NCBI GenBank assembly: GCA_945643635.1
Contig: CALZFC010000062.1
Location: 259,501 to 323,500, forward strand
Length of the DNA stretch: 64,000 nucleotides
DNA from: Allodiplogaster sudhausi
Lineage: Eukaryota > Nematoda > Chromadorea > Rhabditida > Diplogasteridae
Direction: 5' to 3'
Positions 1,869 through 57,770 of this stretch are shown one piece after another. The stretch's first letter is position 1, and each line of letters starts with the position of its first letter. The notes under the pieces are model-generated. The model saw only the letters and a list, made by a program, of their open reading frames with translations, was not told the DNA's origin and made no database searches. The translations under genes were made by a program, and so were the position numbers.

Positions 1869-4026
1869 ATGGCGACTGAATTTAGACATTTTATGAAACA
1901 TTTCAATTTATCTTATTGTTAGGTATAATTGTACTTAAAAGAATAGTAATAATCTTCCGCTTACTTCAACTTTTCGTAACTTTTATGAGTATATCAATGA
2001 GATAATTGGGATCAAATAAACAATTTCACAGTACATTGAAATAAATAAATAAAATTATAACATGTCTTTTATTTACCAGATATAGAAGACGCAACAGAGA
2101 CGCGGAAGAAGGAGATTGCGACGTTGTCTGCTATCAATTCGTGTTCTTCCTTGCACGGCGACTTCCTCTTCCGGCCCCTGGCCCTCGCTGACATCCCTTC
2201 CGTCGTCCGCATCGCCACCCACGAATTCCTCGAAGATGAACCGCATTGTCGAGTTAGCCATTTATACATTTTCTTCCTTTGGGATAAGGAAAATGAAATC
2301 CATTCTGTAAACTCGTAAATATAAAAAAAATGATGATAAAAAAATTACAAATATTTTTTTAAATATGGGAGGCAGATGTAGTGAATCTTTCCGAAATGCC
2401 CTCAGGCCCTTGGACTGCACGCCGAGAACGCGGGCCAGCTGGTGGAATACATTGTCCGTCGCTGTTGTCACTACGCATGCTCAGTTGTCACCACATTGAG
2501 GAGTACCGGTCAGGTTAGACAACCTTGCTTGGGGGTTCATGGTTGGACATATGATATACACCATGACACCCATTACGGAACTCTTACATAACGCAGTCAT
2601 CTGATAATTTGAATGAACTTCTTTCAACTACAACTCCCTATTTTTATGTGAAATTTTGTGCGAGACAATCAATAATTGTTCCATTTAAAATTTCTCTCCA
2701 AGATTGTTGCCTTTCGCCTGATGTCCATCGGGCATCGCTCTCCTTCGGATGACGTCATTCCATTCCACCCCGTTGTCAAGTCGTCAACCGCTCTTGTGCC
2801 CTGTTCGTTTCCCATATCTCATAATGATGGATATATGTATGTATCTGTCATTTCACCTCATCATGATGCATGCTCAACACCGAGTTGTCAATGGTATAAC
2901 CGCAATAGCGGAAGCGGCGAGATGGGCCAAGTGGAAGATGACTTTTTTAGACAAATCATATATCAATATTAGATCTTGGAAATTTCCTTCGCTATTTCAA
3001 TTTAAAAAGTTTTATCGTTAAGGAATTTGTGTTTTCATACGGAACAGTGACAAATTGTGAGCCACTAGCATGCCATATATGATACACCAATGCATTTCTT
3101 GAAGGTGCCATGAACCAGCAGTTGGAGAACAATTTTTGGACGAACCAGAAGGCGTCGACACTGAAGGTGAGCAATTGAAAGGCAAAAAAAGTCATCATTC
3201 GAGGATGAGTCTGGCAAACTTCGCGGTTGTTCCTTATTAGAAATGAAACTGATAATTGTCAACCTTCACTCGAATTAGTACTGTTGAGATGACTGAAATT
3301 CCTGTCATAATTACTCATATATTGATCACGTTTAGGTAATCACGCTGTCACATTGTTCCCGTGTCTATTCGTAGATTCTGCGTCATGAACTGACCTTCGT
3401 CTCTTCCGTCCATCGCCGCCGTGGAATCGCCTCCCATCTGCTTCATCTCGGCTTGCACTTTAACCAGCTTAAAGTCAATATACGTATTATTATTGACTTA
3501 ACGGATTGTGTATTGTAAAAATTTGAAGTTAAAAAGGTTTTTCATAATTTTTATTTCTAAAAAGATAATTTAGAAATATCCATAAATTAAGGCATTGGGC
3601 ATCACGGGTATTCTTGTAAACGCGTCCACGAATGGGATGCAGTCCCTGCTAGAGCGCGTCGGCTACCGCTGCGCTGCCGAGGTTCTTCCTCTCTCTCTCT
3701 CTCTCCTCATTTTTCAAGACCACCAGCAATTAATTTTTCGGAATCTATACTTTCAGAATAATTAATAATATTCATTGGATTTTTCCACGCTTTCTCGCTC
3801 TCTCTGCCTCTCCCCCCCCCCTCACTCTTGTCTCGAGTGGCGGAAGCTATTGAACATGTTCTCTTCATTTTAGGATAGTCCTCGTTTCTTTCTCTCTCCC
3901 TCTATCTCTTTTCAGGCGACCACCCGGAGTGTCGACACGCCATGGTGCCGTCTTCTCAACGATCCCACCATGCCAACCAACACCGATTCATTGAAGCTGA
4001 TGTACATTGCAATTAAAGAGAGCTAA
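1869..4026 (+). CDS. GNAT-family N-acetyltransferase (arylalkylamine-type, nematode)
   Basis: Probable acetyl-CoA-dependent N-acetyltransferase of the GNAT fold; the substrate cannot be named. Proposed exons: 1,869-1,917 (tentative start), 2,080-2,252, 2,406-2,513, from 2,703 (end uncertain), about 3,120-3,166, 3,375-3,473, 3,592-3,681 and 3,916-4,026 (stop TAA). Order of motifs: FRPLALADIPSVVRIATHEF with FLEDEPHCR (GNAT beta1-alpha1), ALGLHAENAGQLVEYIV, IVAFRLMSIGHR (beta4), then SSVHRRRGIASHLLHLGL, which fits the acetyl-CoA pyrophosphate loop (R/Q-x-x-G-x-A/G), then GITGILVNASTNGMQSLLER and GYRC (beta6/beta7). The family level is clear. The start exon is chosen only because its phase fits, and the join around 2,760-3,120 is unresolved. 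The last intron ends in a CT-rich tract. Confidence 0.8.
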
Positions 4027-5293
4027 TTACGTCATCTATGAAATAAGGCCTCATTCTTATTAAGATGTATTTTCATGTAGTACCATCTTTCAAAGCACTC
4101 ATTTACTAGATGTTTAACCGGAAATAATATCCTCTCTGTCGGCATAAATATCCATTAAGAAAACCGGCATGTGAGTTGTATATAAATGATTATATGCATA
4201 CATAAGTGATATAATGAATGTGATCGCTTCCAGTTCATTTGACTCGAGCGACCAGCAGAAAGATGTCATTGAAGTTTCGTTCAGAGATTTGTTTTAAATG
4301 AGTGGCATGCGAAAACCCCGACCCATTCAAAAAAATTATTATTTTTGCTTTAGTATTGAATATAATTAGAACGAGCATCGAGTGTATTTTGTATTCATGT
4401 TCTGGTTAGAAGAACTTAAACCTTCATAAATAAGTTGCAATATAGGCTGAAGTAATGGCGGGTCTGCAGAGGCTGTTCAAGCAAGGGCTATCGATATGCA
4501 TCGCTGAAGTTTTCTCCCTCTCTTCCCTTCGACTACACGCAAGCAAGCATTGCATTCGACGTTTGCCTATAAAGAATGCGCATACATAAATTATCTTTCT
4601 CTCGCCTGTCTCCTACTTTTCCTCTCTCTCTCTCTCTTACTCTCTCTCTCTCTCTCTTACTCTTTCTCTCTCCATCTTTCTATCTCTTCGTCCTCTCTTC
4701 ATCTTCTCGCTCTCTATCCGAAGCGACTACACAATTGCCATTCCGTGAAGCTGTTCGTAGATATTTAGAAGAGCCGGTGAATGGCATCTCCTATAAAGAG
4801 ACCATTAAACTCTCCCCAATCACTTCTCCAAGATGAAATAATCTCGGAACCTCTCTGAACATCTTCTGAAAAAATGCAACCATCGAATGGTTCGATAAGT
4901 TGGCGGCAACTTGAAGGGCTGACGCTGTTTGTGTTAGGGCCCGGGCACTTATTATATATAGACTTCCCTGGTTTACCTACATACATATGAGTTAACCCAC
5001 AAGGTACCCATAACTTTTTGCTCCGTGGTTCTTAATTTGTATTCTACGGTGCTAAGTTCGCCGCACGTCGAAACCAGTCGAATGAGCGACCTACGGAAGC
5101 ACGGGAAAAAAACGAAGGTTTCACTTGCTTCCCGTTTTGCGACCACTGTAAAAAAAATGGGAGTAGGAAGTATTAAAAAAGATATTTGAAGAAAGTGAAG
5201 AAGGCCCAGAAGCTTCCGAATGATCGGAGAGGCCGTTAGAAGTTCTTCCGTTTGAGCAGCGGCAATCTTTCTCTTTCCATTTAATGAGCACTA
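4027..5293. other. Intergenic region, no gene seen
   Basis: AT-rich spacer between the acetyltransferase and the 41-bp minisatellite. It has a CT-rich stretch at about 4,620-4,700. Short open frames here are low-complexity and show no family similarity I recognise. Confidence 0.5.
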
Positions 5294-8276: not shown

Positions 8277-11200
8277 ATTGCCGTCTCTACTGCTGCATGC
8301 ACTGCAACGCGCGACGCTGCACGAGCAACGCGCTCTCGCGCCACGTCAAGCAGGCGCACCCGGCGGCCTACCAGGCAGCCTGCCGCTTCCAGTGCCCCGT
8401 TTGCAGCCACCGCGTCCCGCTTCGCATCTCCATCCTCAGTCACATCTCGGTACGAGCAGCTGAAAGTGGTCCGTGTTCAACCCCCGCGGGCAGTTGCAGC
8501 TGAAAGTGGTCCGTGTTCGACCCCCTCGAGCAAGGCAGCTGAAAGTTGGGGACCATGTCAGAATAGCAACGTCAATATAGCAACACGTTGTAAAAAGGAC
8601 ATTTCAACACCGTACTTCTGGCAATGGTACATTTGAGCAACGTAGCCTTATCGCAACGAAACGGCGGCCATTTGAGCAGCTAGTCAAACGAGCGCCAAGG
8701 AAATAGAGCAAAAGCGACACATGAGCGACAAGAAAACGTTTTAGCAATGGGCTAGATACCACTTCTGGTATTGGAAATGGTATTGGGGGCCTCTGAAACC
8801 CAATACCACTTTCACCTGCGACAATTGAGCAACGACATTTGAGCAACGACTTTTGAGCAACGGGCTAAATCTTCGTCCCTGGTATTGGGGGGCCTATGAG
8901 ACCCAATGGGTTCCACCTGTGACATTTGAGCAACGGGCTAAATCTTCGTCCTTGGTATTGGGGGGCCTATGAGACCCAATGGGTTCCACCTGCGACATTT
9001 GAGCAACGACATTTGAGCAACCGGCTTGATCTTCGACCCTGGTATTGGGGGGCCCATGAGACCCAATGGGTTCCACCTGCGACATTTGAGCAACCGGCTT
9101 GATCTTCGACCCTGGTATTGGGGGGCCCATGAGACCCAATGGGTTCCACCTGCGACATTTGAGCAACGACTTTTGAGCAACGGGCTAAATCTTCGTCCTT
9201 GGTATTGGGGGGCCTATGAGACCCAATGGGTTCCACCTGCGACATTTGAGCAACGGGCTTGATCTTCGTCCCTGGTATTGGGGGGCCCATGAGACCCAAT
9301 GGGTTCCACCTGCGACATTTGAGCAACGACATTTGAGCAACGGGCTTGATCTTCGTCCCTGGTATTGGGGGGGGGGCCTATGAGACCCAATGGGTTCCAC
9401 CTGCGACATTTGAGCAACGACTTTTGAGCAACGGGCTAGATCTTCTTCCCCTGCATTGAGGGGTCTTTGTAGACCCAATAGGTCTCGCCTGTGACATTTG
9501 AGCAAGTAGACAGTTGAGCAACGGGCTAAATCCTTTTCGCTGGTATAGGGGGCCTATCAGACCCACTGGATCCAAACTAGCAGTATCTTTTTCTCTCGTA
9601 TAATGGAGACACAATGGGTCCCGTTACCTGCATCTATGTATGTACTTATACAATTGAGCAATAGAAAATCAATGTCAATATGGCTGTTATCCGAGAAACT
9701 CATACTCACAGTCGTGCATGTGTACTTAAAATGTAACATTTGAACAGCGCTGACAATACTACAATTGCATGACAATTATTGTTTTATTTTATGATACTTA
9801 TTTTGTCCACTTCATCTATTATCAGAGAATTATTGAGTGCTGATTTGCATAAATAAGCATATTTTCACCCATAGTAGCAGGAGTAAAAATATTTATTTGG
9901 TTACATTTTATGGCATGATTATCTCTATGGACGGAAGTAAGAGGGAAGTCCAGTGAAGAGCAGCCGTGAGTCTGCTGATCGAAGGTTTATATACCATTCC
10001 GAGATGACGAGACTCACATAGTCAAGTAGCGAATGTATATATATATATATTGTACAATATGTAGATATTCAATATCATATCTAGGTACATAACAATCTCT
10101 TTGTGATCATAAAGAAAATGAAAAGTGAAGAAAACGAAATTTTCCTCTTCTTTCCGGGTTTTCGGGGATCGGAAAGGATCTCTTTCCACACGAATATAAT
10201 AAGAGTGGAAATATGCAAATTTCTGCAAATGTGTCACTTTCGAATTAGAGAAAACTCAAATGACCGAAAATTGGAACCCTGATTAGGTATTTGGAATTAT
10301 CGAGAGTCCTAAGCGACATTAATTGGGCCTGTAGTTTGCTACGAACACTCAAGAATGATCTGATAAGTTTTACATGCGATTTTCAGTAGTTGAAGTGGTC
10401 AAAATAATTATTATGGATTGTCATGTCATTGGTAGTATTGTCAGCGTTTCAAATATCATGGCGAGCTACATTTTAAGTACACATGCACGACTGTGAGTAT
10501 GAGTTTCTCGGATAACAGCCATATTGATTTTCCATTGCTCAATTGTATAAGTACATACATAGATGCAGGTAACGGGACCCATTGTGTCTCCATTATACGA
10601 AAGAAAAAGATATTGCTAGTTTGGATCCAGTGGGTCTGATAGGCCCTCTATACCAGCGAAAAGGATTTAGCCCGTTGCTCAATTGTCTACTTGCTCAAAT
10701 GTCACAGGCGAGACCTATTGGGTCTACAAAGACCCCTCAATGCAGGGGAAGAAGATCTAGCCCGTTGCTCAAAAGTCGTTGCTCAAATGTCGCAGGTGGA
10801 ACCCATTGGGTCTCATAGGCCCCCCCCAATACCAGGGTCGAAGATCAAGCCCGTTGCTCAAATGTCGCAGGTGGAACCCATTGGGTCTCATGGGCCCCCC
10901 AATACCAGGGACGAAGATCAAGCCCGTTGCTCAAATGTCGCAGGTGGAACCCATTGGGTCTCATAGGCCCCCCAATACCAAGGACGAAGATCTAGCCCGT
11001 TGCTCAAATGTCGCAGGTGGAACCCATTGGGTCTCATAGGCCCCCCAATACCAGGGACGAAGATCAAGCCCGTTGCTCAAATGTCGCAGGTGGAACCCAT
11101 TGGGTCTCATAGGCCCCCCAATACCAAGGACGAAGATCTAGCCCGTTGCTCAAAAGTCGTTGCTCAAATGTCGCAGGTGGATCCCATTGGGTCTCATAGG

Positions 11201-12675
11201 CCCCCCCCAATACCAGGGACGAAGATCAAGCCCGTTGCTCAAATGTCGCAGGCAGAACCCATTGGGTCTCATTGGCCCCCCAATACCAGGGACAAAGATT
11301 TCACCCGTTGCTCAAATGTCGTAGGTGGAACCCAGTGGCTCTCATAGGCCCCCCAATACCAGGGACGAAGATTTCACCCGTTGCTCAAATGTCGTTGCTC
11401 AAATGTCGTAGGTGGAACCCATTGGGTCTCATAGGCCTACCAACGAAGATCTAGCCCGTTGCTCAAATGTCGCAGACATTGACCCATTGGGTCTCATAGG
11501 CCCCCAACGAAGATTTAGCCCGTTGCTCAAATGTCGTTGCTCAAATGTCGCAGGCATTGACCCATTGGGTCTCATAGGCCCCCCGGGATTTAGCCCGTTG
11601 CTCAAATGTCGTTGCTCAATTGTCGCAGGTGAAAGTGGTATTGGGTTTCAGAGGCCCCCAATACCACTTCCAATACCAGAAGTGGTATCTAGCCCGTTGC
11701 TCATTTCCCATTGCTAAAAGTGTTCTATGATTGCTCGAATGTCGCTTTTGCTCTATTTCCATGCCGCTCTTTTGACTAGCAGCTCAAATGGACGACGTTT
11801 CGTTGCGATTAGGCTTCGTTGCTCAAATGTTCCATTTCTCAAATGTCGTTGCTATTCTGTCATGGTCCCGAAAGTTGTCCGTGTTCAACCCCTAGCCATG
11901 GCGTCCATGTTGAACCATTCTGCCCTGGCCGTTTCACTGTTTTCAAGGGTTCATCCTTAATGGCCCTTGCTTCGTCCCTTCCCAGCACTAGATTGCATGT
12001 GCTGAAATGCCCACTAGTGGTTCACGGTGATCCAATGAATTTGTAATAGTTAGCCGAACGCTACAGTAGAAAAAAAACATGTCAAGGCCTGGGGTGGCCG
12101 GCCCCGGGGCCTACTCTGGGGGCCAGGGGCCGTGGATAATTGAACGAAATACACCCAAGTTTAGCATCTTATGACCCAAATCAACATGAAATCTGTCTCT
12201 CAGGCGGGATATTTTCGGATAATAATCGTCTTGTATCTGCGTGGGTTGTATAGGGTCGATATTATCTTTTTCGTAACCCAGTAGCCTTGTTATCCACCAG
12301 CCGTTGACTCTGAAGCTAATACACGCTAGCAGGCATAATCAGAACTTTTTCATCTCCTTGCCAGGCTCTTTAATAGTGAAAAAAGGTTGATGGACACTGT
12401 GCTTCAAAACTGACTTGTAGTTCGCTGCTGGCTCCTTTTCCCACGAAATCATTCCTGGCTTGCGGAGCGGTGTCCTTCCTCGGGGTGAACGCCCCATATT
12501 AAGCAATGCTTCATTTCAGCGTGTCCATGGAAGCTCGCCGGATTTAGTACGTGCAATTCGCGAGAGTTCGCCAGAGCCATCTCCGGAGCAGGCAGTTTCT
12601 TCTCTTCTCGCTCTCGCGCTCCCTCAGCGACAGCCAGGTAGTCAGATTGTGGCTATTCCAATGGCTATTCGTTAG
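8277..12675 (+). CDS. C2H2 zinc-finger protein, copy 1 of a tandem trio
   Basis: Two exons are clear: 8,277-8,449 and 12,520-12,675 (stop TAG). Finger 1 is C-x2-C-x12-H-x4-H (CMHC ... HVKQAH). The second is C-x2-C-x12-H-x4-H and is split by the intron between its two histidines (CPVC ... ILSH, then IS/RVH across the splice). The first exon needs one base from an upstream exon; ATG at 8,199 with a donor at 8,212 fits the phase but is weak. The tail (RVHGSSPDLVRAIRESSPEP) matches the tail of copy 3 (RIHGSASLYVDRIRERTPEE), which supports the long-range join. The 4.1-kb intron is long because a foldback element sits in it. Likely nucleic-acid binding; target unknown. Confidence 0.7.
8453..8548. 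repeat. Tandem repeat at the foldback target site
   Basis: Units of the form GCAGCTGAAAGTGGTCCGTG followed by TTCRACCCCC start near 8,457 and 8,502. A third copy, starting near 8,536, is cut after GAAAGTTG by the foldback element and resumes with TCCGTGTTCAACCCC at 11,878. Confidence 0.8.
8549..11869. mobile_element. 3.3-kb foldback DNA transposon, 8-bp target duplication
   Basis: Ends are GGGACCATG and CATGGTCCC. Both sides carry the target duplication GAAAGTTG (8,541-8,548 and 11,870-11,877). Inverted arms run about 8,549-9,772 and 10,421-11,869. Each arm is largely a tandem array of units of about 73 bp (TTGAGCAACGGGCT, TGGTATTGGGGGGCC, ACCCAATGGGTTCCACCTG), about eight on the left and about eleven on the right in inverted orientation. 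The single-copy spacer of about 650 bp (9,773-10,420) has no transposase-like frame, so the element is non-autonomous. Structure resembles foldback/Galileo-type elements; superfamily not assigned (8 bp fits hAT, P/Galileo or Merlin). Confidence 0.9.
12089..12150 (-). repeat. GC-rich dispersed repeat, inverted copy of 240-325
   Basis: The reverse complement reads TTCAATTATCCACGGCCCC and ends GGGGCCGGCCACCCC, matching the block at about 243-325. A related GGGCCCGG-rich stretch lies at 54,018-54,125. Confidence 0.65.
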
Positions 12676-18138: not shown

Positions 18139-25056
<6,918 letters not shown>

Positions 25057-41917: not shown

Positions 41918-43367
41918 CTAGGCCGCCTTGTGGACGCGGTGCTTGCGATGGCGGTAGGAGTCTCCGCCGAAGCCGCTTCCACCGCCGTTTCCCCCTCCGC
42001 CCCCGTGGTGGCCTCCGCCGGCTCCTCCTCCGACTCCTCCGCCTCCAATATGTCCGCCTGCAGATCCTCCTCCTTGGTGTCCACCACCGCCGCTAGAGCC
42101 TCCCCCGAAAACGCCAATACCTCCTCCGCCTCCGGCCTAGAACTTTATACGTCAATGTTTTATTATTGGAATGAGTTCATGGTCGATAAGTTAGTGATTG
42201 TGAAGAAAAGAAACAACTAAAGATCGTAAAAGAGGAGAAAGGCTCCAACCTGGCCATGCCCACCACCGAATCCACCGCCACTCTTGGGCGGGCAAGGGCA
42301 GTATTCCCCATCGCCTCCAGGCGAGCCTGGGCCTCCGGGACCTCCCGGATGGCCGGGTCCTCCGGGCTGGCCAGGGTGGCCTGCAGGGCCGGGCGCACCA
42401 CGAGCACCGGGGCCACCTGGACCGGCGGGGCGGCCGGCGTGGCCGGGCTGACCAGCCGCGCCAGGAAGGCCAGGGGCGCCAGGCGCGCCGGGCTTGCCGC
42501 GACCGCTGTGTCCAGGCGCGCCGGGGGCACCGGGCTGGCCTGGATGGCCAGACTGGCCGGGTGCGCCAGCATTGCCAGCCGGGCCGGGCGGGCCTGGCCG
42601 GCCACCGCCGCCGCCCGAGCCGGGGGCGCCAGCGTGTCCGGGCGGGCCAGCATGACCCGGCCCACCGGGAGCGCCCGGCGGTCCCGGCCGGCCGGGCGGG
42701 CACGTGAGGCATCCGCTGCCGGAGCCGGAGCCGCCGAAAGGAGCCTTGCGTCCGGGCTGTCCGGCGTTGCCCGGCTGACCCGCTTCGCCGGGAGCTCCGG
42801 GCGCTCCCGGTGGTCCCGGGGGTCCCCGAGGGCATGAACCTCCTCCGCCTCCTAAAGTGCTTGTTATATGTCAATAAATTTATAAATAGCGATTTTATAA
42901 AAGTATTTTTGTTAATGTTAATATTCAGAAATAAAAAGATCATAATTCACCTCCACAACCGCAGCTGCCGGCGCCGCGTTTACCGCGTCCGAGAAGCGCG
43001 GAAGCGCCGGCGGTTCCGCGCGTCTCAGCAATCATGCTTGACCAGGCACGGTCGGCGGTCTCCTTCAAAAGCACATATTATATTTCTTTCATTTCGTTCT
43101 TCGTATGATCTCAAAGAACTTGTTACAAAAGAAGAAAATTTAAGAAACCGTCATTTTTGCACGTCGATAAAGTAAAAACAATTAGTAAATAAATAAGAAT
43201 AATTGTAAGCCTAAGATCGTGCAGACCGTAAACTCGTGAATCTGCGCGAGGGACTGTTCGTGAAAGGCGGAGAGGTCGGCGGCGAGATGGAGAAGGGCGC
43301 CGACGCACGCGGCCACGAGCAGCACACTCGCGCCGCACGTCGCAGTCACCACTCCGTCTGAGAACAT
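41918..43367 (-). CDS. Cuticle collagen A
   Basis: Nematode exoskeletal collagen. Minus-strand exons: 43,227-43,367, 42,951-43,062, 42,250-42,851, 41,918-42,134 (TAG). Order: N-terminal cuticle-collagen domain with a hydrophobic membrane segment ([20 protein letters not shown]), a subtilisin-type cleavage site (LGRGKRG), a cysteine knot (CGCG), Gly-X-Y blocks split by a [13 protein letters not shown] cysteine pair, closing cysteines YCPCPP, a Gly/His-rich domain, and a basic tail ([13 protein letters not shown]). The gene is complete, and its exon layout matches the other two collagens here. Family membership is certain; the orthologue is not. Confidence 0.93.
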
Positions 43368-44865: not shown

Positions 44866-46428
44866 TCAGGCGGTCCTGTGCTTGTGGAGATGGCGGTGGC
44901 GATGGCGGCGGTAGGAGTCGCCCGTCTCGCCCTCGCCGCGATTCATAAACTGCTCAACGTCGGCCGATGTGTAGCCGCCCGGTGCTGAGCCGTGACCTGG
45001 AGAAAAATATATTCATTTTTCTGGCCACGCCCACCCGTCCACAAATATCTTTGTTTTAACATTTTAAGGATGTATGCAACATACCAGAGCCAGAGCTGCC
45101 ACCGACACCAGATCCACCGCCGGTTGAGCCCGAGGACCAACCACCAGAGGAGCGAGAGCCAGAACCAGATCCGCCGAAGCCGCCAGATCCGGAGCCATCT
45201 GAGCCAGATGCAGAGCCAGATCCAGATCCACCGGATCCGCCTCCGCTAGAGCCGCCAAAGCCGGCGGCGCTTCCGCGAGGCGGGCACGGGCAGTACTCGG
45301 CGTCACCGCCGGGCTCGCCAGCTTCCCCGGGCGCGCCGGGACCACCAGGCGAGCCGGCTTGTCCGGGCTGGCCGGCGGGACCAGCTGGTCCGGCGGGTCC
45401 GGGACCTCCGGGACCGGCTGGGGCACCGGGCTGACCGGGCTGACCGGCAGGACCGGCGGGGCCGGGTGCACCAGCGGGCCCAGGTCGGCCGCGTCCGCTG
45501 TGTCCGGGCGCTCCGGGTGCCCCAGGGTTGCCGGGTGCGCCTGGTTGTCCAGGTGCGCCAGCGTCTCCAGCGGGTCCAACTGGACCCGGGGCTCCCTGGC
45601 CGCCACCATATCCGGGTGCTCCGAGTTGTCCGGGAGCGCCGGAGTTTCCGGGAGCACCGGGGGCGCCGGCTGGGCCGGGCGGCCCCTGCGGGCACTGGAT
45701 GCACTCGGAGCCGCCGCTGGAAGAGGAATCGCCCGAGGCTGCGTTACCGGCCTGGCCAGGCTCTCCGGGCGCGCCGTCGTCTCCGGGAGTGCCAGGGGCG
45801 CCGGGTGGTCCGGGCGGGCCTGCCGGGCAGTTCGACGCCTGGGCACCGCAACCACAAGAGCCACCAGACTAAAAATGTTATCATTTATTGTAAACCTTTT
45901 TTCTCAAAATAAAAGTGAAATTCTGTTGTTTGTTATATAAAAAAAAAGCTAGATGTAGCGAGAAATACCTATTATTAGACGGAATACCTGTCTCTTTCCA
46001 CGGAGGAAGATGCCCGAGACGTCGCTGGATGCAGCGCGCGTTGTCGGGACCATGTTGCCCCAGGCTTCGTCCGCGTGTGTCTGGGAAAGGAGAAGCCGTC
46101 ACGTCATCAGCCTTATTTGTTTTTTTTTTGTTAATTACCTGGTTTTTAGCTAAATTTCATGTTGATATTGCAACAAAAAGGTATACATATTTGGCTGTTT
46201 AATCGTTTTACATGCAAATAAAGAAATAAATTATATATATATATATGCACATATATATTGTGATAATCGGCGGAAAATGCGAACCTTGAACGCGGCAATG
46301 TCAAGCATTGCGTTGTCGTAGAAGCCGGAGAGATCGACGGCCAGATAGGCGATGCCAGCCAGGCTGCCCGCCATGAGCAGCGCCGCAGAAGTCACGAGAA
46401 AGGCAGCAGCTCCGTCCGAGGAACCCAT
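44866..46428 (-). CDS. Cuticle collagen B
   Basis: Minus-strand exons: 46,285-46,428, 45,988-46,080, 45,085-45,868, 44,866-44,996 (TGA); all phases agree. N-terminal domain with membrane anchor ([20 protein letters not shown]), then [14 protein letters not shown], cleavage motif FLRGKRQ, cysteines CGCG ... [10 protein letters not shown], a second pair [13 protein letters not shown], two interrupted Gly-X-Y helices, [10 protein letters not shown], a Gly/Ser-rich stretch, and a tail with a His/Arg run ([14 protein letters not shown]). The CIQC/YCPCPP cysteine pattern is shared with collagen C (50,042), pointing to recent duplication. Confidence 0.94.
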
Positions 46429-50477: not shown

Positions 50478-51608
50478 TTTTCTCTCTCACTCTCTCTTTT
50501 TCTCTGCTATTCTCTTTCTCCCTTTATAACCTTCTCTCCTCTCTTTCTCTTTCGCTTTTCCAAACAAAGACTATTAAAATATGTAGCTGCATATATACAT
50601 ACATACATATGTAAATCTACCAAGCAAAATTTGAAAGAATAATTAAAGGAGAAAGAAAAGCTGAATTGTTTGCAGTCGGGCGAGCAGTGCAACTGCGGCG
50701 CGCAGCCGAGAAGCTGCCCGCCGGGTCCGGCGGGCCCGCCCGGCCCGCCCGGAGAGCCGGGCCACGACGGCACGCCTGGACACGCCGCGCCCTCTGGCAA
50801 TGCTGCCTTCGGCGGCGTGCCTCTCGACCAAGTCACCGGCTGCATTCAGTGCCCGGCCGGGCGGCCCGGTCCGCCCGGGCCTTCTGGAGCGCCCGGCAAC
50901 GCCGGCCCACCCGGCCAGCCAGGCGCGCCCGGAGCGTTCGGCGGCTACAGCCGGCCCGGTCCGCCCGGCCCCGCGGGCGACGCCGGCTCTCCCGGTCGCG
51001 CCGGCTCGCCCGGCAATCCCGGACATCCCGGTGCGCCCGGACACAAAGGACGCGGTAGGCCAGGCGCTCCTGGCGGCCCGGGCCGCGCAGGCGCCCCGGG
51101 CCATCCTGGGCAACCTGGACAGAGCGCGCATCCCGGAGCTCCTGGACCGGCTGGTCAAGCTGGCCCTCCTGGCCACCCTGGCCAGGCGGGTAAGCCGGGC
51201 GCTCCAGGCGCCCCCGGCGCTGCCGGAGAGCCGGGCGGGGATGCTGAATATTGTCCCTGCCCACCAAGGGGAACTGGAGTAGCGCCAAGAGTGGGATATG
51301 GTGCCGGCGGCGGCTCTGGGAGTGGTCATCAGACGGTGCCTGAAGGATTCGGCAGTGGCTCCCAGGGAGGCGGACCAGGGACATTCGGAACGGGTTCGGA
51401 GAGCGGCGAGCAATTTGAAGAAACCTTCGGACCGGTCGGAGGACCCTCCGGCTCGGATGAATCTGGCCCGAGGGGCCATTCCACGGCCCCTGGGACAGCC
51501 AGCGGAGATTCTGGAACCCCGCATCGAAGCGAGGGTGGCGACTACCGAAGAAAGAAGCATCGCGCACTGCTAATTGTAAGAAGGCAGCGCAAGCATCGCA
51601 CTGCTTGA
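50042..51608 (+). CDS. Cuticle collagen C
   Basis: Exons 50,042-50,185, 50,308-50,400, 50,676-51,608 (TGA). N-terminal domain [20 protein letters not shown], then [19 protein letters not shown], and in exon 2 [16 protein letters not shown]. Cleavage motif [26 protein letters not shown], second cysteine pair [13 protein letters not shown], long Gly-X-Y runs, [10 protein letters not shown], a Gly/Ser-rich region and a basic tail ([20 protein letters not shown]). An in-frame ATG at 49,997 would add 15 residues; 50,042 is preferred because the family usually starts close to the membrane segment. Unlike A and B, the C-terminal exon is not split. A CT tract follows the second donor. Confidence 0.93.
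50403..50515 (+). repeat. (CT)n tract in collagen C intron 2
   Basis: Starts two bases after the exon 2 donor dinucleotide and runs about 110 bp, mostly CTCTCT with TTTCTC interruptions. Confidence 0.85.
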
Positions 51609-53205
51609 AAGACCAATTCAGGAACTTCATTTTAACTGTCGTTATTATGCAAAGGTACCCGATAAATTCCGTTGCGTCCCAATTGTCGAAACAATAGGAC
51701 GATCTGGAAAAAAAGTTATGTATTTTCAATTTGCACTATCAAATGTGAGCAAACGAGACACTAATCAGAGGGCGGGGAAGGGTGGGTTCAGCAGATCGGT
51801 AACAAAGCAGAGAGGCCTTGCATTTAGATAGTCATTTAATAATGATTCGGTTATAATGAAAAGAGAGCCACTTCTCTGAATTGAAATTAAAAGAAATTGG
51901 GGAAAGGAGCGAGGTGGGCATTGATACATAGGTATGTACATATGTACATACATATGTCTGCATTATGTATGTATGTATGTATGTATGTATGTATGTTTGT
52001 ATGTATGTACATGGGTGCGCAAATTCACTCCCGCAAAATTGGCTTAGTTATCGCAGAGAATTGCAATTCTGCCGCAACAACCAGCTGACGAGACATTCAT
52101 TCAATTCCCCGATATTGGCTGACCATTTCTTCAGACATTAATAGTTCAATTGAAGACAACCCCTAAAGAGACATCATGATTACATAGTATCGCTTTTGCC
52201 ACGTTGTCTTCATAACAACTCTACTGAATCATCTCGAAAGTAGGCTGATGGGAAAAATGGTACGCAAAATATAAAAAAAGCTATACAAAGTAAGAACAAA
52301 CGAACTTCAAGATCAGAAGGCTATTTTAGAGTTTTATTTAGACAAGAAGAAAAAGTAACCTTACTGGCAAACAATGAGACGCCTGTAATCAGCTCTTCTA
52401 ATCAGAGGCTTCCAAGAAAGCAGGAATGATTTCTACGAATGTGCTGCCCTAGTTCATGTTCTCTGTTCTGTTCGAAATATTCGTCGTTCGTGATTCTTGT
52501 GAAGACTGAGAAAAGACAGATGTTTCGCGATTCTTCAGAATGGCGCAAAGAGGCAAGCTTCCGTTCACACTCTGTAATTGCTCATGCCAAGTTGTGCATT
52601 TTTGCCGCACACAAACATATTCGTCAACTAATGTACATACGAAAAATGGAAAAGTACATATGTTCACTCCCACAAAATTGGCCTCATCGGGGTGCTAATT
52701 GTAAGAACGCGAGAATCTTCTGCTCTGCCCCACACTCATCCACTTGCAGTCCTGGTTTGCCCCGTTGTTATCTGCATTTTCAAGCCTCATCGGCTTTAAG
52801 TTGGTTATGCATCTTTTTACATTTAACCGATAATGATTAAAGGTCATTGGGAACCTAATTTATGCAAAGTTCAGGAATGTTCATTTTGTTCACGCATAAA
52901 AACTCGAGTTTTTGAACAACGCTTGTCGGAATGTTTCTTTTCGTTAACTATGTCTTCGGGCCTGATCCCATGGCTAAACTTAATGGGAACAATGAGAATA
53001 AGCTCACACGGTTTAAGCATTCATTATGCCCGAATGTTTCCGATTAAGAAAAGGAGGATTAATTACATCTTTTCTGTTGTATACTTTGAGAGTTCGTCGG
53101 GGACTTCTCTCTCGCTTTGCTGTATGAATGCATACTGGTGATGCGCAAAATAGTGGAAGGCGAGAGAATGTCACCATAGAGCTCCTTATTTCTCCTGGCG
53201 CAGAG
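51609..53205. other. Intergenic region with (TATG)n repeat
   Basis: TATG/TACATA tetranucleotide repeat at about 51,930-52,012. No convincing gene. The AGCTCCTTATTTCTCCTGGCG sequence near 53,180 is part of a short tandem repeat that was the target of the next element. Confidence 0.5.
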
Positions 53206-54173
53206 CTCCTTATTTGGTTGCGAGCCTTAGCTTTCGATTTTTTACTTGGGTCTTAGCTTTCGATTTTCGCAGAGGGGGGGCGTCTTAGCTTTCGAAACAC
53301 ATGCTGCTCAAGTCGCAGTTCAAAGCTAATTAAATCCACCTGCTAATTGACATTTTCATAGTGCCTAAGGTCAGATAAACGTCCAGCACTTCATAATTGA
53401 CTAAAAGATGACCTCGTTGTCAAAGCAAAACGTTTCCTACAGCCGCCGTAGTAAAGTGTCGCTTTTTGAGGGGTAATCCTTAGGATGTTACCCATGAGAA
53501 TAATGTGTCTGAATCTCTGGCATGAGCGTGCTCTCTCGTACTGTCTAGCATGCCACCATTGTTTACCCTCATGGGTAATGGCATGGAAAAGACTGTGGGG
53601 TAATGTTTGGAAAAATCCAGAAATCCTTGCCTGAAGTTATGATATTTCATAATATTACGAACTTTAAAAAAGCGAAATCGTTAAGCAATTGTCAGAGCAT
53701 CTCACCAAACACTTTTTGCAGAATCTTCTTGTCCGCTTCACATATCGAATTCAAGTCGTATTCAGCGCCACTGATGTCACGCATCTCGCTGTTCTACAGC
53801 AATTAGCCTGTAAACAGATTCATAAAAAAATTCCAGCAACAAACGGGGCATACAAATGCCAGCAGCAAATGCGAACATCAATGGAAGTTATTTCATTCCG
53901 AAGTGGAATTGAGTCGTTTAATTACTACTGATCTGCTATATTTTGAATGGTCAATTTGAGCAATAAGAGTTCGGTCGGTCATGAGCATGATCGAATGCAT
54001 ATTTTCGAAAATCGGGCCGAAGCGGGCTCAGGGCCGGGCCTAAGGTTGGGCCCGGCCCGGCCCGGCCCTACAGGGAGGGCCCTAGCTTGGGCCCGGCTCT
54101 GCCCGGCCCGGGCCGGCCCGGGCCGCGTGCAGCTCTGCACGCAATTCATGGAGACGAGGTCAACCTCATGTGT

Positions 54174-54211
54174 AAAATGGTTATGCCAATACGCATTGGC
54201 ATAACCATTTT
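54174..54211. other. Perfect 17-bp hairpin
   Basis: AAAATGGTTATGCCAAT, loop ACGC, then the exact reverse complement. It sits beside a GGGCCCGG-rich block (54,018-54,125) inside the inverted-repeat element. Confidence 0.85.
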
Positions 54212-54386
54212 TACCTTTCATCGTCCAGCGCCAAATTACGAATATAGTATTTGTGGTAAAAGTAACGGCGTGCTGTCCGGAACCATGAGAGATGAAACAG
54301 TTCTGTCTATGATGCTTTATTGTTTTTGTGAATTGTTGTTGTTTTTTGATAACCATGCGGGTTCTCATTACTTTTGCGCCTAATTA

Positions 54387-55274
54387 TATGCCGATTACGC
54401 TTGAGTTACGAACGGAGAGCGAGTGTACCGGCACGTTTCGCGCTGCTTCCACCTTGCTGCTCAACGCAGCACTGCGAATACCTCCTCGTACTCGTTCTCA
54501 TCGCTCCATCTCGAGTCGCTGTAGCCTTGTCGCCTCGCCTCGTCTCTTCCTCCAGCGAACTGCACCGAAGGCACTGCTCAGGTATCTCAAGGAGCTCAAT
54601 CAGAGGTGTGTGTAGTCTAAGTTTTGCTTCAATTTTAGATGATTGGGTTATTTTGTTGTTATTTGGAGAATTCTTTTTATTCGGCGTGTTTAACTTCTCG
54701 ATTAGGGTGTTGCTTTTCAGAATTTTCTCGTTGTCTTCCGCCTGAAAAGTGTGCGTCGTGGGAGAAGAAGCCGACGAGTTGGCGGCCAGTGACGGATCTT
54801 CTTCCGCTTTCCCTCCCGATCTTGAGCGGCAGTAACCCAAGCAGGTTCGCTTTATAGGTGGTAAATTTGTGACTGTTAAGAGAGTTGACTCTCGCTCGTC
54901 TCTCCGCTCTACCAGCATGTGCATTTTACTATTGTTTCTTTTCCTTCCCACTTCTTTTAATATCTTCAGAGCGATTGTTTTGGTGAGATTGGCCGTGCCG
55001 GATGGCTTAACTGGTCAACTCTTTTGTAGCCTGAACGCATCCATTTTTGGGAAGACTAAGTTTTGCACGAAACATGAAGAAAAACTACCCCCTGTACAAG
55101 GTGCTGCACGAGGCGGACGTCGTGTGTTGGCGCGGCCTGCTGACGCACATCGCTGCGGCACCCTTCGCGAGCCGCGACGCGTGGCGATGCAGCCGGGACG
55201 ATAGGAAGGACTCCTTTCTCATTTGCCAAGACTGCAGCCTGATCGTCCACTTTGGCTGTCCATCCACGAAGTAA
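54387..55274 (+). pseudogene. DXO/RAI1 (DOM3Z)-family fragment inside the transposon
   Basis: DXO-family enzymes are nuclear decapping exoribonucleases. The clear part is an open block ending at 55,274 (TAA), with the family-like core ADVVCWRGLLTHIAAAPF followed by ASRDAWRC, resembling the (V/I)xWRGxLTxxxxxPY...W segment before the catalytic centre. Candidate upstream exons (54,387-54,607 ending APKALLRYLKELNQR; 54,724 to about 54,842 with LPPEKCASWEKKPTSWRP) are less certain. The acidic catalytic motifs (E-x-D, E-L-K) that should follow are absent, because the frame stops soon after a cysteine-containing tail (FLICQDCSLIVHFGCP). I read it as truncated host sequence captured by the element. 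Whether it is expressed is unknown. Confidence 0.5.
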
Positions 55275-56329
55275 GACAGCAAGTCGCCCTTCCTCTTCGC
55301 ATGAAAGAAACACGAAGCTCGCATCGCTTCCTTGCGAATGACAAGGGTTTCATCATTCCTGTTGGATTGTCTACTCGAATCGTGATTCCTTCATTATTCC
55401 TTATTTTAAATGGAAATACCTGTTATTTCTTTGGTAGAAGTAAATCTTGCGGTTTTTAACTTGTTCTTGTGCAACAATGCTACTTTATTATTGGATATTC
55501 CTTGTAATTTGGTTGGCAGTGATTGCATGTAGAATGTTCATCTTAATATCCAAACAAATAGCTAATTTTTGTCTGTATTATAAGGGATGCTGTTGAATTA
55601 CAATGCCTGTGATCTGTTCTTGTATTGCTGTTGCTCCGTTCGCTTGGGAATTTTCATTCACTGTTAGATAACATTCTTGCTATAAAAAGCTATTTTTGAC
55701 ATTGTAATCATCAAAGAGCAGGAGTCAGCAAATCACGAGGGCTTCGAGAATGGTGGGATAGTTGTAGTCCGCGTCGTAATATTCCCAAATGGGAGCGACA
55801 GTAGAATGGAGATGAAGCAGGGATGACTCACAACAGCAGAAAAAAGATACGAAAGCGAAAGATAGCATCTTTCAGCTGAGATTACCCTCAGGATAATGTG
55901 CGGCGAAACTAAGTGGTAATGGTTTTACCCTCATGGGTAACAACCTCAGGATCACCCCTCAAAAAGCGACACTTTACTACGGCGGCAGGAAACGACCATG
56001 GAGCAATGAGGCATTGCCAATAGGAATATGTAATCTTTCCATTATGCGAATATCGAAGTTGCAAACCATATTCCATAATCGAAAGCTAAGACGCCCCCCC
56101 TCTCCGAACATCGAAAGCTAAGACGCCCCCCCCTTCTCCAAAATCGAAAGCTAAGACGCCCCCCACTTTCGCGGGCTCGAAAAATTATTTTCGAAAGCTA
56201 AGACTCGCACCCTCCTTATTTCTCCTCGCGGTCCATATTTTGAATCTTTTATCGCTAGATAATGAAGAATGAAAAACTAATAATGATGATCTCTCACCGC
56301 ACCTAGAGACTCGTCACTCTTGGACCCCC

Positions 56330-57770
56330 ATGACCCACGCAACGATCAACCCATTCAGATCGGTCTTACAGATGTCAGGAGAAGATCAGACACTTCCACT
56401 GGTACTCTCTCTTTCGGCGGACTCGCTGATGTTTATCTCGCTTCCTCTGAACATTCGTCTGCTCTGGACGTTGGCGCGGCGGCGAAACGCGCCGGCCGAG
56501 CTGGAGGCGCCCTTCCATACCGCCCTCCAGCATGTCGGTCAGACGATACTTTATTATTATTTCATTTTTTTAAATTAGTTTTATTCATATATAATTTCGG
56601 ATTAAAATGATGTACTCGCTCACTGGTTACGTTTGATTGCAGCGATGCGCAACGTCCTCTACGCCTTCATCAATCTATTCATTCAAGAGCCAGCAAACTA
56701 TGGCTTCTTTCCTCACTTTTACATCGTTGGTGAAAATATGATTTCTAACAATAGGTATTACTGTCTTTCAATGACATTATAAAGGGAGGGGGGGGAGTTC
56801 TATTATAGGGGGTAGGGGGTATTAATGGACAAAATACGGGAATTAAGAGAGAAAAAACAAAAGAGTGTAGAATGAATTCAATTAAATATGTTTGAATAAT
56901 AAAGTAATAGATATTGTGTTGACTGATTTGAGGCCAACGCGTTCTGGATGGGCCCTCTCTACAACGTGCAAGTTTTCGTGCTCGTTGCCCTCGAAGCACA
57001 CATTCACTTTGTCATTGCGGCCAATCGATACACCGCGATCTTCTTGCCGACCAGACACAAAACGGTACTCGCCCTGACTATCCATCTCATCTTTCTCAGA
57101 AAGTTTTTTTAAATAATTTATTTTATATCTGAATTTCAACAAACATATTTATCTTAACGAATTTCCAAGCGGGATAATATAGGCAAGTTCACATTTAGAT
57201 GGTATAAATAACAGTGTAATATATTTCATCGAGAGAGCATTTGACTTAGAGAGACGCAGATACATCATTCAGAGAAATTCAAATAGATTATGGTTGTTCC
57301 GTGCTCCTTTATATCTATGTGCTGCTTGCCTTCAGCTCTGGCGCCGCCGACGGGCGACGTGGGCCTGCGGCGTCGGCTGGGCCATCGGCGCGGTCTACTC
57401 GCTCCCTCTGATCTACCCGATTGACATAGACGTGGAGAGGCGGATGGGCATCTTTGGAATGCCGGGTGTCGCCTACATTTTCCATTACCAAACGAGTCTT
57501 GCATTTCAGGTAACTTTCTATCTATTTTGAATATTTTAAATGTGAATAATCATCATTGGAACAAGAAAGGACTTGTGTCGATTTAAATTTTTTCAATTAA
57601 AAAGGATGTACATTTTTTTATTCCGATCATTATTCTTTCATACTTTTTTCGTCTGCTGCTATAGATTCCGCTTACGATTATCGGAGTTGTTCTCGAAGTT
57701 ACCACGTTTGGGATGTACTTTCGGATTCTGCTGGAACTTTGGCGCCAGGTGCACGGAAGCAGTCATGCGG

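Follow-up and report, generated by a model that had tools for sequence, protein, structure and literature searches.

The region 53206-56221 of the window (the whole stretch of 64,000 nucleotides of Allodiplogaster sudhausi DNA analyzed here) consists of several distinct mobile elements nested in one another, and is not one Mutator-like element with a DXO fragment, as a sequence-only reading had proposed. Since the carrier of the DXO fragment, an element of a family which we call A, jumped into an outer repeat having its own ends and its own duplication, the locus has to be read as a stack. In the course of events that we regard as probable, a DXO exon would have passed from a host gene into a second transposon family, B, and from B into A, which then multiplied. 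The features are listed in Table 1, where L numbers denote loci.

Table 1. Features of the nested elements, in window positions.
Feature	Positions	Strand	Basis or remark
10-bp target duplication of the outer repeat, left copy, CTCCTTATTT	53206-53215	.	sequence, repeat search
Outer repeat, left half; tandem units with (G)TCTTAGCTTTCGA at 53224-53295	53216-53439	+	
3-bp target duplication CAG of family A, left copy	53440-53442	.	empty site in L038
Family A element, DXO carrier, Pack type	53443-55985	+	transposase not found in sister copy
Family A left terminal inverted repeat, CCGCCGTAGTAAAGTGTCGC...	53443-53503	+	inverted-repeat search, ends of copies
Further repeat inserted in the A copy of the window; GGCCC-rich right part	53616-54138	.	
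Core common, collinearly, to A and family B	54372-55698	+	
Chimeric frame, 66 codons plus stop, DXO and PHD-like	55074-55274	+	
Captured DXO/RAI1 exon fragment	55081-55190	+	profile positions 68-100 of 333
PHD-like second scrap, C-x2-C-x4-H-x2-C pattern	55188-55251	+	below Pfam cut-off
Family A right terminal inverted repeat	55925-55985	-	inverted-repeat search, ends of copies
3-bp target duplication CAG of family A, right copy	55986-55988	.	
Outer repeat, right half; four tandem terminal units at 56079-56211	55989-56211	+	multicopy family
10-bp target duplication of the outer repeat, right copy	56212-56221	.	sequence

The 10-bp direct repeat on which the sequence-only reading was based is present at both of the places indicated, with inverted repeats just inside, and a third copy of CTCCTTATTT occurs at 53182-53191, where it forms part of the target's 24-bp tandem repeat. 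When the two halves of the outer repeat are joined, an element of 450 bp is obtained. In the window copy, composite termini made of tandem units are found at both ends together with the 10-bp duplication, and the terminal word TCGAAAGCTAAGAC (with one mismatch at most) occurs seven times in the window versus 0.04 times expected, always in one of the two ends of this repeat. The long matches of the outer family end mostly at query positions 223-224, which correspond to 56212-56213; in five other outer copies, only the right end agrees and the left parts differ from the window copy. Since the site of A is uninterrupted in all five of the outer-family copies fetched (the empty site in L038 reads CGTTTCCTACAGGAAACG), A was inserted into the outer repeat, which is the place into which the DXO carrier jumped.

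The termini of family A begin with CCGCCGTAG... (terminus word CCGCCGTAGTAAAGTG). They all start with CCG, and with CCGCCG except at the left end of L029, where CCGAAG is found. Matching CNG triplets flank all 12 of the A copies having both ends (CAG in six, CTG in five, and CGG in one), L027 and L030, the left end of which is missing, being kept outside this count. The whole DXO piece is present in six of these two-ended copies, and a part of it in L045. The RAI1 scan detected seven other loci, with 89.9-91.2% identity to the A element of the window; its right end is common to all seven and its left end to five. Among the 17 A loci listed, eight carry the whole exon fragment and three a part of it, which gives, in the count of copies with and without cargo that had been suggested at the outset, 11 of 17 with DXO sequence and 6 of 17 with none; these figures are lower bounds, 40 of the 972 candidates having been scored. 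The A element is about 2.0 kb long without its later insert. Among the other forms, L034 and L035 have internal deletions, L043 and L044 are full-size copies with a B-like core and no DXO, and L036, a copy of only 725 bp, is devoid of the whole shared core and joins 54368 to 55702, near the A/B edges. This last copy looks like the pre-capture form of A, and could alternatively be a deletion derivative. With its inverted termini and duplications, its host-derived cargo, and its cargo-free form, A qualifies as a Pack-TIR.

The 523-bp repeat inside the A copy of the window is a recent insertion. None of the other aligned A copies contains it, 518 of its 523 positions are identical to L037, and it occurs at at least 13 other loci (87-99% identity, matching from query position 411). 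No tRNA-type genes were detected by ARAGORN in the 64,000-nt window, and the three Rfam matches obtained in 53000-56500, which overlap a GC-rich stretch, are all below their gathering scores.

As had been proposed, a mobile element does contain here a DXO-family gene fragment, which was taken up from a host gene and exists in copies. The open reading frame 55035-55271 matches the Pfam RAI1 profile with an E value of 2.5e-6 and a score of 27.4 bits, just above the cut-off (26.8), while 55081-55190 is about 88% identical at the DNA level to host DXO exons (97 of 110 positions in two of them and 88 of 99 in the third). Since the profile score taken alone is thin, the DXO identity was accepted on the strength of this DNA match. 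In the genome profile search, all eight A-type RAI1 matches are below the cut-off (16.2-24.3 bits, the window scoring 24.3), as is L031 when compared alone with RAI1 (19.0 bits). The homology was expected to stop before the catalytic part, and it does so, with 33 of the 333 profile positions covered; we take the catalytic residues of RAI1/DXO to be placed outside profile positions 68-100. The idea that elements might spread DXO genes stands in so far as the fragment moves, but not as regards a functional gene, the catalytic part being absent from it.

The search for a parental gene led to three host DXO loci with further RAI1 exons (genome profile search), to which the exon of the eight A copies is 85.9-89.1% identical over 99-110 bp. 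No donor stands out among the three. The 10-kb host DXO stretches (n = 3) match A and B in the DXO sequence only, at the thresholds used, and 10 of the 13 RAI1-profile loci in the genome lie in transposons. All eight of the proteins found with the host exon bear PF08652, and the seven with a named organism are all from nematodes, presumably strongylids. The best match among solved structures searched by sequence was Din1 (E 0.76); the protein database search gave no candidate with the short open reading frame and one with a padded query, none at E 10.

The core of A matches family B outside the DXO sequence too, and the termini of the two families differ: the terminus word of B is CTCTGTAAATGAAA, and the target duplications are of 2 bp in all eight of the B copies with both ends. 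The core runs on into B's own flanks in L022, L023, L046, L047, L055, and L056. In L022, two DXO exons and the intron have been kept (82% identity to L025 over 417 aligned columns), the full-frame Pfam scan gave a RAI1 match, and the non-B stretch is about 0.7 kb long. L022 itself was not the donor to A, since it is missing 32 bp of the exon start that A holds. A CRAL_TRIO piece was found in L023 (2.4e-9) and a ubiquitin piece in L047 (3.5e-11), a host domain scoring above the Pfam cut-off in only three of the seven B loci scanned. L055 and L056 are cargo-free full-length B copies: where A has the 170-bp DXO and PHD-like piece, L056 has 169 bp without detectable similarity, and L055 is likewise dissimilar there. 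The all-against-all BLAST of the loci was performed with low-complexity filtering, and the shared bases at the capture junctions were judged by eye.

We therefore envisage the following course of events as the probable one. The outer 450-bp inverted-repeat element would have landed with its 10-bp target duplication. A DXO exon-intron-exon segment would have been copied from a host gene into family B, presumably a transposon gathering host gene pieces, and this capture would have occurred at the DNA level, since L022 keeps an exon, an intron, and the next exon. The B-derived core may then have reached an A element as a copy, for which template switching in gap repair is the simplest route, and A would have increased in number by normal transposition, using a transposase provided in trans that was plausibly a PIF/Harbinger enzyme. 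A nonautonomous Pack-type A copy, carrying the 110-bp DXO exon and the PHD-like scrap, entered the palindromic center of the outer repeat, where CAG was duplicated, and the 523-bp repeat entered this copy later on.

It is rather unlikely that no transfer from B to A took place, the same host segment having been taken up twice, once by A and once by B, or the core having passed from A to B. The direction of the transfer is one that we infer, the 32 bp of the DXO exon present in A are missing in L022, and two A copies (L043 and L044) have the core without DXO, all of which would fit such a scenario. However, the core is continuous with the B flanks in the six B copies compared, it is missing from L036 at almost the same edges, and the common DXO-to-PHD order would hardly be expected from independent captures. 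Much less probable still is a host exon relay, in which gene pieces would pass between the transposon families of this nematode lineage by template switching and the DXO copies would serve as a source of small RNAs tuning the host DXO/EOL-1-type RNA surveillance genes; if this were true, a second transposase system would become open to fragments taken up through the first.

The DXO fragment is most likely a passenger, since its catalytic part is missing and its variation is like that of the rest of the element. The DXO piece and the PHD-like scrap meet at a shared TGC. Against the Pfam PHD profile, the scrap scores 18.2 bits (cut-off 24); its PHD-like nature is favored by the arrangement of its C and H residues and by another C-x2-C, seen in L022, and the short L022 pieces gave no PHD match in Pfam. 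In the eight A copies, the chimeric frame shows 20 nonsynonymous versus 8 synonymous codon variants, its variable sites number 13, 8, and 12 at the three codon positions (66 of each), and 16.7% of its sites vary versus 17.3% of the element columns; no sign of selection was detected on this frame among the eight copies. That the block might be a host DXO gene, still alive or in decay, amid unrelated repeats is thus scarcely conceivable: the 66-codon frame is open in seven of the eight A copies, but the block covers only 33 profile positions, its DXO sequence recurs at at least 11 A loci (11 of the 17 listed), codon-level constraint is absent, and host DXO genes exist elsewhere without the element. 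A host DXO gene at this locus was rejected on the grounds of the separate host loci and the unconstrained frame. Of the two findings named beforehand as fatal to the sequence-only reading, the first, a profile search rejecting DXO similarity, did not occur, as DXO is accepted both by the profile and by the DNA comparison. The second, a normal gene between unrelated inverted repeats, applies only in its second half: there is no normal gene, and the outer repeats are unrelated to the block.

The target duplications of the Mutator superfamily measure about 9-11 bp, a length which A, with 3 bp in all 12 copies, does not reach; with its CNG duplications and other termini, the DXO carrier is therefore not Mutator-like, and the 10-bp repeat and its termini do not bracket one DXO-carrying element. 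A single Mutator-like element spanning 53216-56211, which would have taken up DXO directly and be mobile as one whole, can be dismissed. Although the block is framed by inverted repeats and by a 10-bp duplication free of mismatches, the DXO copies at other loci are framed by the carrier's own ends with 3-bp duplications, and the site is empty in the five outer copies fetched. As to the enzyme that moved A, six-frame scans of the A copy L031 and of the B copies L022 and L023 gave no transposase family at E 0.1; the weak DUF1506, FAF, and SprT-like matches in these scans were all below cut-off and taken as chance. Harbinger-type transposases (DDE_Tnp_4) occur in the genome, with 150 of the 150 scored matches above cut-off. 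The A duplications are CWG in 11 of the 12 copies and CGG in one, and a transposase of the PIF/Harbinger kind is plausible. CWG target duplications are also given for the NuwaI group of PIF/Harbinger (PHIS) in its description (PMC4482050), which places this group in animals only and names no nematode among its 16 genomes. NuwaI termini usually begin with GGG, whereas those of A begin with CCG, one of the 12 A sites is CGG, and the A copy scanned (L031) gave no transposase.

Plant Pack-MULEs are known to capture gene fragments and to carry chimeric cargo from several genes. In capture and chimeric cargo A resembles them, but it is not of the Mutator type as judged by the length of its duplication. 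The animal survey of Tan et al. (2021; PMC8277862) lists 370 Pack-TIRs in 100 genomes, mostly hAT and Tc1/mariner, with only four multicopy cases (three in frog and one in alligator); its reference genomes yielded no Pack-MULE, and four Pack-TIRs are given for the worm genome. These Pack-TIRs are host fragments in DNA transposons with terminal inverted repeats and, like A, have short shared bases at the junctions; A differs from them in its cargo at at least 11 loci, its CNG duplications, and a cargo common to a second family, and its 85.9-89.1% identity to host exons is under the survey's 90% search cut-off. Besides these worm cases, gene capture has already been published in nematodes for the C. 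elegans Harbinger transposon Turmoil-1 (PMC2572040). Turmoil-1 belongs like A to a nematode, and to a superfamily with 3-bp duplications, and it holds two unrelated host pieces, one of which consists of two exons and an intron. However, a single family bears the pieces there, within its long terminal repeats, and a transposase is present in the full copy, whereas here the cargo is central, is found in two families, and no transposase was found inside.

Capture in animals is already known; multicopy capture with a probable relay between families is new. Pack-type capture in animals has mostly been reported as single copies (PMC8277862). The present genome shows likely successive states side by side, namely host DXO genes, B with and without host pieces, A with the piece at at least 11 loci, core-less A, and empty sites, which allow tests of exon movement between families and of the origin of a chimeric frame. 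The locus also teaches that, in nested repeats, the outermost duplication may belong to another element than the carrier of the cargo. As regards the outer repeat, its termini made of tandem units, as seen in the window copy, are like those of the Mutator/Foldback element Tm1 of root-knot nematodes, in which the number of units varies; host-sequence uptake by Tm1-HH was suggested by the authors (PMC3169594). The duplication is of 10 bp in the outer repeat versus 9 bp in Tm1, and the units measure about 33 bp versus 13-15 bp.

The DXO piece of the window is carried by a transposon family (family A), the window copy of which is inserted inside an outer repeat with tandem-unit termini. The right end of this copy is common to all eight A copies matching the RAI1 profile, and its left end to the six retaining that end; L027 and L030, from which it is missing, were therefore left out of the triplet count. 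With six further copies (L034-L036 and L043-L045) added, the left and right flanking triplets are identical and of the CNG form in 12 of the 12 copies that could be compared at both sides: six have CAG, five CTG, and one CGG. Neither outer arm was matched anywhere in the 10 kb taken for each of these A copies, and the right arm belongs to a separate multicopy family (at least 58 matches, 40 of 117 candidates scored). In all five outer-repeat copies fetched, the insertion point is unbroken and free of A: L038 reads CGTTTCCTACAGGAAACG there, which is identical to the window minus the insert and one CAG. The 10-bp duplication, the inverted repeats, and the DXO/RAI1 gene piece described in the sequence-only reading are all present, but the carrier proposed there, a single Mutator-like element with captured cargo, is excluded by the five uninterrupted outer-repeat copies and by the 3-bp duplications of A.

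Coordinates of the features in the window and elsewhere in the genome (G000)
Feature	Location	Coordinates
Outer repeat, interrupted by A	window	53216-56211
Outer arms	window	53216-53439; 55989-56211
Family A copy	window	53443-55985
Younger 523-bp repeat	window	53616-54138
Interior shared with family B	window	54372-55698
ORF matching RAI1	window	55035-55271
DXO+PHD piece (170 bp)	window	55082-55251
Serpentine-receptor-like ORF	window	56927-57112
Large repeat blocks	window	8623-11836; 19538-21982
Inverted pair	window	19538-20664; 20855-21982
Gly-Pro-rich frames	window	42220-42870; 45059-45868; 50643-51605
Host DXO gene loci (RAI1 profile search)	C242; C103; C10	3.78 Mb; 1.04 Mb; 0.50 Mb
Stretch unmatched in other B copies	L022	5115-5792
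CRAL-TRIO piece of a B copy	L023 (C242)	3988-4146
B copy with ubiquitin-domain piece	L047 (C17)	3963900-3967000
Tandem array of right-arm part	C19	3036392-3037417

Since the left parts of the five outer-repeat copies are unlike that of the window, only the window shows the left end of the outer element and the duplication belonging to it. The left parts of L038, L039, L040, and L042 share a stretch absent from the window's outer element, perhaps reflecting a longer form of it. Part of the right arm also occurs on contig C19 in about a dozen tandem copies with 62-bp spacing, an array which is a terminal repeat expanded to a small satellite.

No transposase was found in the six frames of the A copy L031. 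At least 150 genomic matches to the Harbinger-type DDE_Tnp_4 family (PF13359; 150 of 150 scored above the cut-off, 275 candidates) were identified. Stops are rare in these matches and some scores are identical; judging from their sequences, the Harbinger-type transposases of this genome have probably been active recently. The 5'-CWG-3' duplication is given as a mark of the NuwaI group of the Harbinger superfamily (PMC4482050). According to the same source, NuwaI ends usually begin with GGG, whereas those of A begin with CCG, and since in addition no transposase is tied to the A ends, A is not classed here as NuwaI; we infer that it behaves like a Harbinger-type nonautonomous element.

Against Pfam RAI1, the ORF containing the DXO piece scores 27.4 bits over profile positions 68-100 of 333, with the cut-off at 26.8 bits; PHD-type families follow below the cut-off (PHD, 18.2 of 24 bits). 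The eight proteins nearest the DXO exon of this genome all carry PF08652, and the seven with a named organism are from nematodes, the best match being that of Cylicocyclus nassatus (69% identity over 77%). In the 351.8-Mb genome, where the window occupies C62:259501-323500, the RAI1 profile gave 21 matches at 13 loci, 10 of which lie in transposons: eight A copies including the window's (16.2-24.3 bits, all under the curated cut-off in this search) and two copies, L022 and L023, of a second family (B). The other three are host gene loci, and those on C242 and C103 are similar over most of their 10 kb, being either duplicates or two haplotypes. DXO genes may be widely expanded in nematodes, as proposed in the sequence-only reading; the profile search gives these three gene loci for the present genome.

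At least 17 A loci were counted, a lower bound obtained with 40 of the 972 candidates scored. Among the 17 listed, the DXO piece is entire in eight, partial in three (C6, C45, and C10:2.14 Mb), and absent in six (C259, C21:1.0 Mb, C59, C346, C30, and C86). Among the eight whole-DXO copies, L028, L029, and L033 show 97.8-98.2% mutual identity and L031 and L032 98.6%, while the window copy is 89.9-91.2% identical to the other seven.

The termini of family B are CTCTGTAAATGAAA, and its duplications measure 2 bp in all eight copies with both ends (TA in L022 and L055, TT in L023 and L054, GA in L046 and L052, AT in L047, and AA in L056); L050, L051, and L053, in which both ends are not within the fetched stretch, are outside this count. 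The right-hand 448 bp of L022 matched at least 38 B loci (40 of 218 candidates scored), two second pieces and two matches in A loci being set apart from the 42 rows. Copies L055 and L056 measure 3.8 kb; each shares 94-95% identity with L046, and neither is matched by the host DXO gene in L025. In L022, about 0.7 kb has no match in the B copies compared; it includes a DXO exon, the intron, and the exon after it (82% identity to L025 over 417 aligned columns), then a PHD-like piece with its first C-x2-C. L023 carries the second of these two DXO exons along with a CRAL-TRIO piece (PF00650, E 2.4e-9), and L047 a ubiquitin-domain piece (PF00240, E 3.5e-11). The Pfam scan covered seven of the 11 fetched B loci, in six frames for L022 and L023 and in three sense frames for L046, L047, and the interior parts of the three copies L050-L052: host domains were above the cut-off in three of the seven, L051 gave a weak DUF1258 match below it (E 0.025), and the other three gave no match.

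The interior of A is collinear with B, and at the place of the DXO+PHD piece of A, L056 contains a stretch of 169 bp showing no detectable similarity. L036, a 725-bp A copy with intact ends and a CTG duplication, fuses window position 54368 to 55702, near the limits of the A/B homology; on the simplest reading, it is the form of A preceding the entry of a B-derived core. It could be a deletion product; L034 and L035 are internal deletions of A, the edges of which differ from those of L036. As regards the entry of a B-derived core, the core of L043 and L044 is B-like and devoid of DXO, so that A may have received DXO with the core or afterwards. L022 is excluded as the direct donor, because 32 bp at the exon start are present in A and missing in L022. 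Short runs common to A and its sources were seen by eye at the junctions (AA at the exon start and TGC at the joint between the exon and the PHD-like piece), as expected from template switching in gap repair, by which A would acquire its cargo; PMC8277862 argues for this mechanism in the single-copy Pack-TIRs of animals.

In the 66-codon frame compared between the eight A copies, 20 single-step codon variants are nonsynonymous and eight synonymous, three multi-step variants being set aside. The variable sites number 13, 8, and 12 at the three codon positions and amount to 16.7% of the sites in the frame versus 17.3% of the columns in the whole element, and one of the eight copies has a stop. 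At the sequence level, these values fit the DXO+PHD-like chimera being a passenger.

The 523-bp repeat in the window's A copy is missing in the other A copies aligned and is an insertion younger than this copy, at the site of which a short A stretch was also replaced. It was found in at least 13 other loci (87-99% identity, matching from query position 411), and 518 of its 523 bases are identical in L037. It begins with TCCAGAAATCC and has a GGCCC-rich end; no inverted termini were noticed.

Nematode DNA transposons are already known to capture genes: this has been published for Turmoil-1 (PMC2572040), four worm Pack-TIRs are reported in PMC8277862, and PMC3169594 gives a hint of it for Tm1-HH of root-knot nematodes. 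Mutator elements and Caenorhabditis genome size are treated in PMC10015627. Neither DXO cargo nor a relay between transposon families was described among the papers listed in a literature search that lacked most subscription journals.

Elsewhere in the window, the serpentine-receptor-like ORF shortly to the right of the nest matches 7TM_GPCR_Srx at 17.3 bits, below the cut-off of 23.8. Large repeat blocks are present, including a 1.1-kb inverted pair showing 97.7% identity, and the three long Gly-Pro-rich reading frames look by eye like cuticle collagens.
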